A stretch of 64,000 nt of DNA from Lota lota. Its lineage: Eukaryota > Chordata > Actinopteri > Gadiformes > Lotidae. The position numbers and the translations under genes were made by a program. The stretch lies in NCBI GenBank assembly GCA_026745465.1, contig JACYXH010000826.1, positions 3,267,792-3,331,791 of the forward strand, in the 5' to 3' direction. The notes under the pieces are model-generated. The model searched no databases. It saw only the letters and a list, made by a program, of their open reading frames with translations, and was not told the DNA's origin. Shown in pieces: positions 30,601-35,058 of the stretch (the first letter of the stretch is position 1; each line of letters begins with the position of its first letter).

Positions 30601-33600
30601 CCCACCTGTCCGACATCTCCTTCCACTTGGTGAGCATCTTCCTGGCCCGGGTCTCCACGGGTAGGTCCAGCCGGTGGCAGAAGTAGCCCACCACCCCCTG
30701 GGCCTCCAGGAGTAGGGGCACCCTGTAGATGGAGGACACGTCGTGGACACAGATCACCTGGAGTATAACACAGAACACAAGTTAGTTACAGCATCAGTCA
30801 CCGGATGACTGATGGCCATCGATGAACTGCAAATCCCACATGGTGTTCGGGATGTCAAATTTCCTAGAAGGTGATGGTTCTGGAATCCCTTTTGGGATAT
30901 GTGAGCACCATGAGATTTGTAGTCCTGTTACTTTGGAGTATCAGGACGGGAGTCATTCTTATTGCCACGGGGACATCTTAGGAGGGCTTTACCTGGGTGG
31001 GCTCCACGTGACAGAACATGGAAATCTTCTCCTTCACAGCAGTTTCTAGTGGCGTTGAACAGCGGCACATGATCTAACAAACAGACAACGTGGGTTAGGA
31101 ACACAATCTCTAAACAGAAAATCAAATCCGACTATACATGAAATTGATATTGAGTCATCTATGGAGTGATGTGTTCATTTACTATTTGTAATTTGGCAGC
31201 TTAAGCGGTTTTCCAAAGCCACTTACTTTGAATCAATTTAGATACATACAGGTTTGGACGCAGAACCTTTTGGGTCAAACACCCTAACCACTATACTTTA
31301 CCACCTCTATTTGCCCCATGTCATGTGTTTTTCACGTTTTTGGTTGCTTTTATCATCTCCAACAACTAATCACTAACATAGCTTGGTCATAAGCAAACAT
31401 GAGCAAGACAGTCAGTTGGTATCCATAGTGACCAAACTCACCAGGTCAGGGGACAGGCCCAGCCCTCTGAGCTCACGGACGCTGTTCTGGGTGGGCTTGG
31501 TCTTCTGCTCTCCTGTGGTACTGGGCTAGGGAAATAACGGAAACACACCAACATTGATGTAAACCTGAGTTAATGGAATGTTTATTGAATTAGTGGGTAA
31601 TTCATTCTGCAATTCTGAAATACTCCAGTTGAGTTTGACAAGGATCGGAAATAGAAATTTGTGGGGTCTGTGTAGTTGGTGGTAAGGGTTGGGCACCGAA
31701 CTCGGAAGTAGACTACAGTATACATTATGCTGGTTCAAGGAGTGCGTTCCAACACAGGCAGGGCAACGGAGAGCCCAGAGTGGTAGCCAGTGTGGTTATT
31801 TACATTTTTCCAAACTGGATGCAGACAACGCTACCTGCAATATTTGTAATGCGAAATCCAAAGCTGGCCAGCCGTCCACCTCTAGCCTGAGGAAACAACG
31901 GGTCAAACACAAAATCTATCTAAAAGCCATGAGTGTACCTTGTTTGATAACCTTAAGTTTGATGGCCCTGCAGCTTACTTTAGCACGCCTGCAGCCAGTG
32001 CAGAAGAAGTTCAACCATCCGTGGAGGACGAAACTGAAGTAGCGACCACTTCCTCGTCAGGTAATTAATGAGCTAGTTGGACAAGTTGTTATTGGCCTTT
32101 TTTCACTTTCTTGGTTGACGTTAGCTTAGCATTTTTTGGCATGTACGAAACTAATTGTACGTGAATTGCATACTATTCCCAGGGAAATATTACAGTATTG
32201 GACAGTGAATGACCTAGAGACACACACACAGATCTTTATTAGATCTACATGCGTCTTCCATTAACCGGTGGCGTGTGGCAAAATCAATGATGGAAAGGAT
32301 TCCCCCGGATATTGCCATTTAATGATTTAACAGACCCTTTAATCCATAGTTCCTTACAGTGAATGCTTTTAGATACATATCGTTTAGGAGCAGGCAGAGG
32401 TTAGGCTCAAGCATGCCTACAGTGCTTGGGAGTCAAGCACTGCAACCACACTGCAAAGCTCCAATGTTTCATGGACGTGTGTGCGTTGTGTGCATCGGTT
32501 TAACAGACTTCCATACCTGTGGCACCAGGCTGACGTGGATGTTGCAGAAGTTCTCCCTCTTCACCTTGAACTGGAACTGTCTGAAGGCCTCGATGAAGGG
32601 CATGCTCTCTATGTCGCCCACTGTGCCTCCCAGCTGTTGACACACAAAACACCAGCGCAATGTAACATGATTACAAATCCCATGGTGCTCGGCATGTCAC
32701 ATATCCCCAGAAGGGTAAGGTTCATCGAGCCATGTTACATGGCATTGTATTTTTCAAACTGTGAGTATTATGATTAAAATACCCAATTTACAATTTGGAA
32801 ATGCCGTAAGATAAAGGATATGGCAGTCCTTCTGATCATGGAAATAATAATGACATGACAAAATTCTAGTAAAAAACATTCAGGAATATGTTATGCAGTA
32901 CCCTCCGTGTGCATCAACTCAGCAGTGTTTTGCTACTGCTATACTTGTTTACTGTAATGTATATCATTATCAAGTGAACAGAAATTCCCATAGTTCTGCT
33001 ATAACATACACTGCAGAGGCATGTGAACAAACAGCATTTGTGGCTAGCAAGCAGCGAGCTCAAGACTTGTCTCTACCTTTATCAAACACAGACTTGTCTC
33101 TACTTCTATCACACAGACTTGTCTCTACCTCTATTAAACACAGACTTGTCTCTCCCTCTATCAAACACAGACTTGTCTCTCCCTCTATCACACAGACTTG
33201 TCTCTACCTCTATCACACAGACTTGTCTCTACCTCTATCACTCAGACCTGTCTCTACCTCTATCACGCAGACTTGTCTCTCCCTCTATCACAGAGACTTG
33301 TCTCTCCCTCTATCACAGAGACTTGTCTCTACCTCTATTAAACACAGACTTGTCTCTCCCTCTATTAAACACAGACTTGTCTCTCCCTCTATCAAACACA
33401 GACTTGTCTCTCCCTCTATCAAACACAGACGTGTCTCTCCCTCTATCACAGACCTGTCTCTACCTCTATCACGCAGACTTGTCTCTCCCTCTATTAAACA
33501 CAGACTTGTCTCTCCCTCTATCACAGAGACTTGTCTCTACATCTATCCAACACAGCCTTGTCTCTACCTCTATTAAACAGACTTGTCTCTCCCTCTATCA

Positions 33601-35058: not shown

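Follow-up and report, generated by a model that had tools for sequence, protein, structure and literature searches.

An intact ctps1 gene with an array at the end of exon 3

The window analyzed here, a 64,000-nt stretch of Lota lota DNA, contains a ctps1 gene on the reverse strand (Table 1). The gene is a full-length, intact CTP synthase 1 that lies nearer to CTPS1 than to CTPS2: the top match of its product in the PDB is CTPS1, matched over its full length with 1185.9 bits, compared with 1017.8 bits for CTPS2. Aligned with a human CTPS1 sequence, the product shows 85.1% identity over 589 residues without a gap. Coding exon 3 ends with the codons CAA GTC TGT GTG ATA GAG (Q-V-C-V-I-E), after which the intron opens with GTAGAGA, and this border is backed by the protein alignment, in which human CTPS1 reads QVCVIE and then LGG.

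The same border is the first unit of a minisatellite. Specifically, unit 1 consists of the final 18 coding bases of exon 3 and the opening 7 bases of intron 3, and it contains the true donor, with 33925 as the last exon base. The sequence-only reading had described an array of about 34 units beside a ctps1 exon, built from 18 coding and 7 intron bases with the real border as the first unit. Splitting the array into units confirms both the number and the make-up, and the array is further confirmed by TRF and by a probe search compared with shuffled sequence. TRF reports 33063-33942 with a period of 25, 34.3 copies, 87% matches and a score of 1130, and a second row with a period of 52 and a score of 1153. 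Most units are 25 or 27 bp long, within a range of 23-27 bp, and the partial unit that closes the array reads CAAGTCT (33063-33069). With up to 3 mismatches allowed, a 21-base unit probe finds 32 sites in the window, all of them within the array, and none in any of 100 shuffles. A search of viral contigs for exact matches of the array unit gave 0.

Table 1. Features of ctps1 and of the array at the end of its third coding exon (positions within the window).
Feature	Position	Strand	Remarks
ctps1 coding region	24685..35058	(-)	17 coding exons, 589 codons and stop, intact
ctps1 coding exon 3 of 17	33925..34025	(-)	101 nt; its 3' end, 18 nt at 33925-33942, forms the coding portion of unit 1
ctps1 intron 3	32634..33924	(-)	1291 nt, 862 nt of them array
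Exon-edge minisatellite	33063..33942	(-)	34 units of 23-27 bp and a 7-nt partial unit
True 5' splice site GAG/GTAGAG	33919..33927	(-)	last exon base 33925; weak
Units 2-4	33839..33917	(-)	GG at the donor position; no in-register decoy
First in-frame stop (TGA) on read-through from exon 3	33826..33828	(-)	within unit 5, upstream of the unit 5 donor
Unit 5	33814..33838	(-)	nearest decoy donor to stay intact (last base 33821; +104 nt); 25/25 identical to unit 1
Units 29-31	33149..33225	(-)	identical to units 1-3; sign of multi-unit exchange

A single assembly stands behind the array, and repeats of this size can collapse or expand in assembly, so the length given here could be wrong. That the length, or the array itself, is an assembly product is nevertheless hardly credible: the 34 units fall into 21 distinct types and are flanked by unique sequence, which is unlike a simple assembly loop. 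Read on the (+) strand, the array region shows no stop over 361 codons (33005-34090, stop to stop), a frame made by the repeat with no sign of a gene.

Origin and probable turnover of the units

The exonic part of the unit shows which came first. The residues QVCVIE that it encodes are identical in the CTPS1 of the PDB, so the coding sequence is older than the array and the intronic copies derive from the exon border. This supports the proposal of the sequence-only reading that the exon end and its donor had been amplified into the intron.

We consider it likely that the array is an exon-edge minisatellite that arose by tandem duplication of the exon border and is spliced mainly at the first donor, with decoy use that is leaky at most. 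A 25-bp piece that takes in the end of exon 3 and the adjoining 7 bases of the intron would have been duplicated in tandem and would then have grown to about 34 copies, presumably by replication slippage or unequal exchange. The copies would have diverged, by a T-to-G change at the donor and by a 2-bp insertion that gave the 27-bp units, and several units at a time would have been copied around within the array. If the array is collapsed to one unit, exon and intron each hold one copy of CAAGTCT, at a distance of 25 bp, and slippage between these two copies possibly seeded the first duplication; the direct repeat may also be simply the truncated last unit, and in itself it does not prove such a seed.

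Several stretches of units are closely alike. In blocks picked by eye, units 1-4 and 29-32 are alike at 102 of 104 aligned columns, units 17-24 and 25-32 at 196 of 210, and units 12-14 and 25-27 at 70 of 75. Among unit types, no repeated block is longer than three units, a length reached in 2.5% of 5000 shuffles, while the 2 neighbouring pairs that recur (shuffle mean 0.8) are matched in 18% of shuffles and are not significant. Judged from these alignments and counts, multi-unit copying within the array is likely, though not proven. We also considered whether conversion from array to exon could be read from the Ile codon of unit 1, which is ATA, but there is no signal, as ATA makes up 6 of 35 Ile codons in the gene, a count taken from a gene model whose last exon is one base out of frame.

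Arrays of this anatomy have been described before. The minisatellites called mirages in lancelets lie at exon-intron borders in Adh3, the globins, PGBD5 and troponin C, and they are reported to leave regular splicing undisturbed and have been put forward as a source of new introns (PMC3087553, PMC3902484). As in ctps1, their tandem units span the border and keep the splice signals in many but not all copies; the unit sizes given are 150-160 bp for the globins and 10-72 bp for Adh3, and length instability is reported, at Adh3 also in somatic tissue (PMC3087553, PMC3902484). Concerted evolution is described for the mirages as well (PMC3087553, PMC3902484), to which the identity of units 1-3 with units 29-31 in ctps1 may be compared, together with the mixed outcome of the block and pair tests. 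In human CBS a 31-bp VNTR bears the name c.1444_1467+7(16_21), by which 24 coding and 7 intron bases are amplified, compared with 18 and 7 in ctps1; it too amplifies the end of an exon with its donor, but it has 16-21 copies, all units are 31 bp and it is polymorphic in people, whereas the units in ctps1 vary in length (PMC2630376). In its anatomy the ctps1 array conforms to the exon-border, or mirage, minisatellites, a kind already known. Repeats at myostatin-2 and CTNS were considered as further precedents and set aside, being other repeats. A 1995 paper (Turri; 6-16/IFI6) reportedly concerns a human interferon-induced transcript and, as the title has it, a minisatellite with multiple splice donor sites; to judge from that title alone, its units resemble those of ctps1 in supplying splice donors. 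No earlier report of the ctps1 array stood among the literature matches listed, which included 10 of the 51 papers matched by the gene name.

The true donor, its copies and the predicted products of their use

The weakness attributed to the real donor is borne out. Among the 16 donors of ctps1 it ranks fifth lowest by U1 pairing energy and second lowest by a donor matrix (score 4.0), which is a rough guide, since sites inside exon 3 score equal or higher: a donor-like site with last base 33954 has a matrix score of 5.9 and a U1 energy of -4.3, and one with last base 33973 a matrix score of 4.1. In the 33 later units the donor position reads GT in 16 and GG in 16, with a deletion in one (unit 7), which agrees with the earlier description of half the units as intact and half as GG. 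That reading had also spoken of about 16 near-identical sites in competition with the real one. The number holds for the GT units, but the exact 9-mer donor is kept in only 10 of the 33 later units, a matrix score of at least 3.9 is found in 12, and four of the GT units are far weaker.

Judged by sequence, a weak true donor with 12 equal-scoring copies among 33 units would permit appreciable decoy use. This is the starting point for a different reading, in which the array tunes the dosage of ctps1: the decoys would vie with the weak donor for U1, and the length of the array or its pattern of GT and GG units would set the amount of functional mRNA. Both the identical and the equally strong copies speak in its favour, as do two out-of-register GTs past the stop that are as strong by the matrix (5.6 in unit 20 and 4.0 in unit 28). 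Weak out-of-register GTs may be used as well, such as CAA/GTCTGT with a matrix score of 2.3; it occurs in 17 copies, beginning with the one whose last base is 33915, and some of these precede the stop.

What decoy use would produce depends on where the first intact copy lies. The earlier expectation was that splicing at the next intact site would bring in a single unit of 25 nt and shift the frame. This is wrong: units 2-4 carry GG, and the next in-register GT, that of unit 5, comes only after an in-frame stop. The stop at 33828 precedes every one of the 16 in-register GT decoys, which rules out their stop-free use, and an mRNA spliced at any of them would therefore carry a premature stop followed by many later exon junctions. 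Such an arrangement is the usual substrate of nonsense-mediated decay. In-register decoy mRNA would thus contain the stop and probably be decayed; this speaks for the dosage reading, in which every use of a decoy yields a message with a stop. In the preferred reading, of an exon-edge minisatellite spliced mainly at its first donor, we assume that almost every ctps1 mRNA is most likely spliced there, since unit 1 is preserved by selection on the protein, and in-register decoy use, if there is any, would begin at unit 5 and lead through the premature stop to decay.

Possible consequences for ctps1 expression

Tests within the array itself (order of the units, accessibility and GGG density) gave no indication of function. 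For example, the order of GT and GG units shows no clustering beyond chance: they form 15 runs against a mean of 18.1, a value found in 18.6% of shuffles, so that the pattern bears no sign of selection and argues against a dosage role. Selection against decoys had seemed a candidate explanation, T to G being the commonest substitution (16 of 33 units), but it is unsupported, since the change can spread by copying and the order of GT and GG units is like that in shuffles. Predicted accessibility in the RNA is also alike for the true donor (0.016), the GT decoys (0.018) and the GG units (0.023), with a regional mean of 0.032, which speaks against tuning and equally leaves the idea of an RNA structure that hides the decoys unsupported. 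Intronic GGG triplets can act as splicing enhancers, and in the dosage reading the GGG created by the T-to-G change may serve in this way as well; the array holds 16 such triplets in its 862 nt, however, a density only marginally above that of the remaining intron 3 (6 in 429 nt).

Effects on expression have been measured in human ABCA7, where a VNTR of 25-bp units in intron 18 opens at the GT that serves as donor of exon 18 (PMC5954066). Like the ctps1 array it lies where an intron begins, has 25-bp units and holds the true donor, and a donor one unit (25 bp) onward is described as being in use and as breaking the frame (PMC5954066). It differs in being C-rich and in opening at the donor GT, the exon not being stated as part of it, and in having alleles of up to 9711 bp with measured effects (PMC5954066); in ctps1, by comparison, 18 coding bases lie within the unit and the first three copies lack the GT. 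With longer ABCA7 arrays expression is lower and exon 19, the next one, is skipped more often, as the dosage reading would have it, but retention of one unit affects about 2% of transcripts independently of length and was excluded by the authors as the cause of the lower expression (PMC5954066). Taken together, the ABCA7 and lancelet precedents lean against tuning by decoys. We regard dosage tuning as unlikely, though possible, and the array as most likely largely tolerated.

A broader version of the dosage reading is, in our estimate, rather improbable. Here the exon end, as unit 1 of an unstable array, would be exposed to it in two ways: decoys would divert a variable share of transcripts into mRNA with a stop, so that alleles would set the dosage of CTP synthase, and exchange would copy variant units into the exon. 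Only five of the 33 copies could replace unit 1 while keeping both the peptide and the GT, and in one of the five, unit 33, the base at donor position -1 is a weaker one.

It is very improbable that the array, as has been proposed for ABCA7, would alter the splicing of exon 3 or exon 4 (by skipping) through repeated sites for splicing proteins and not through decoy donors. Its 862 nt are purine-rich (A 0.32, G 0.35), the acceptor of exon 3 is preceded by an unusual tract of 25 C, and skipping of the next exon has its precedent in ABCA7. However, the loss of exon 3, whose 101 nt are not a multiple of three, would break the frame, although the loss of exon 4 (117 nt) would keep it.

If decoy use is real, the array would be a natural experiment on the choice that the spliceosome makes when a dozen donors share one sequence and differ mainly in their distance from the exon, here in a nucleotide synthesis gene. 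Should the array be silent in splicing, the edge of a protein-coding exon lives here inside a tandem repeat, and ctps1 adds one more gene to the short list of those with exon-border arrays.

Other splice sites of ctps1 also involve simple repeats. At the acceptor of exon 3 (34026-34052) a pure run of 25 C before the AG stands as the pyrimidine tract, so the exon that carries the array has an unusual acceptor too. At the acceptor of exon 8 (30382-30511) a (GT)64 repeat on the coding strand directly precedes the AG in place of an ordinary pyrimidine tract, giving about 128 nt without AG in an intron of 224 nt, and the donor of the same exon is the weakest of ctps1 by the donor matrix. UG repeats at acceptors are familiar from CFTR exon 9 and TDP-43. 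As a group the splice sites of ctps1 are not enriched for repeats, since 3 of 32 touch a TRF repeat compared with 12.4% of intronic 5-mers. The window as a whole is repeat-rich (positions 1-64000), with 80 TRF rows covering 9.3% of it, many of them dinucleotide repeats. Its sole Rfam match at gathering scores is a UnaL2 LINE 3' element upstream of ctps1 (37705-37758; RF00436, 61.9 bits), an eel-type LINE that is in keeping with a fish host, though no proof of one. Downstream of ctps1, an open frame on the (-) strand (20126-20623) matches the Ras family (Pfam PF00071, 7.3e-25), the only match among the 10 of 65 listed open frames that were scanned.
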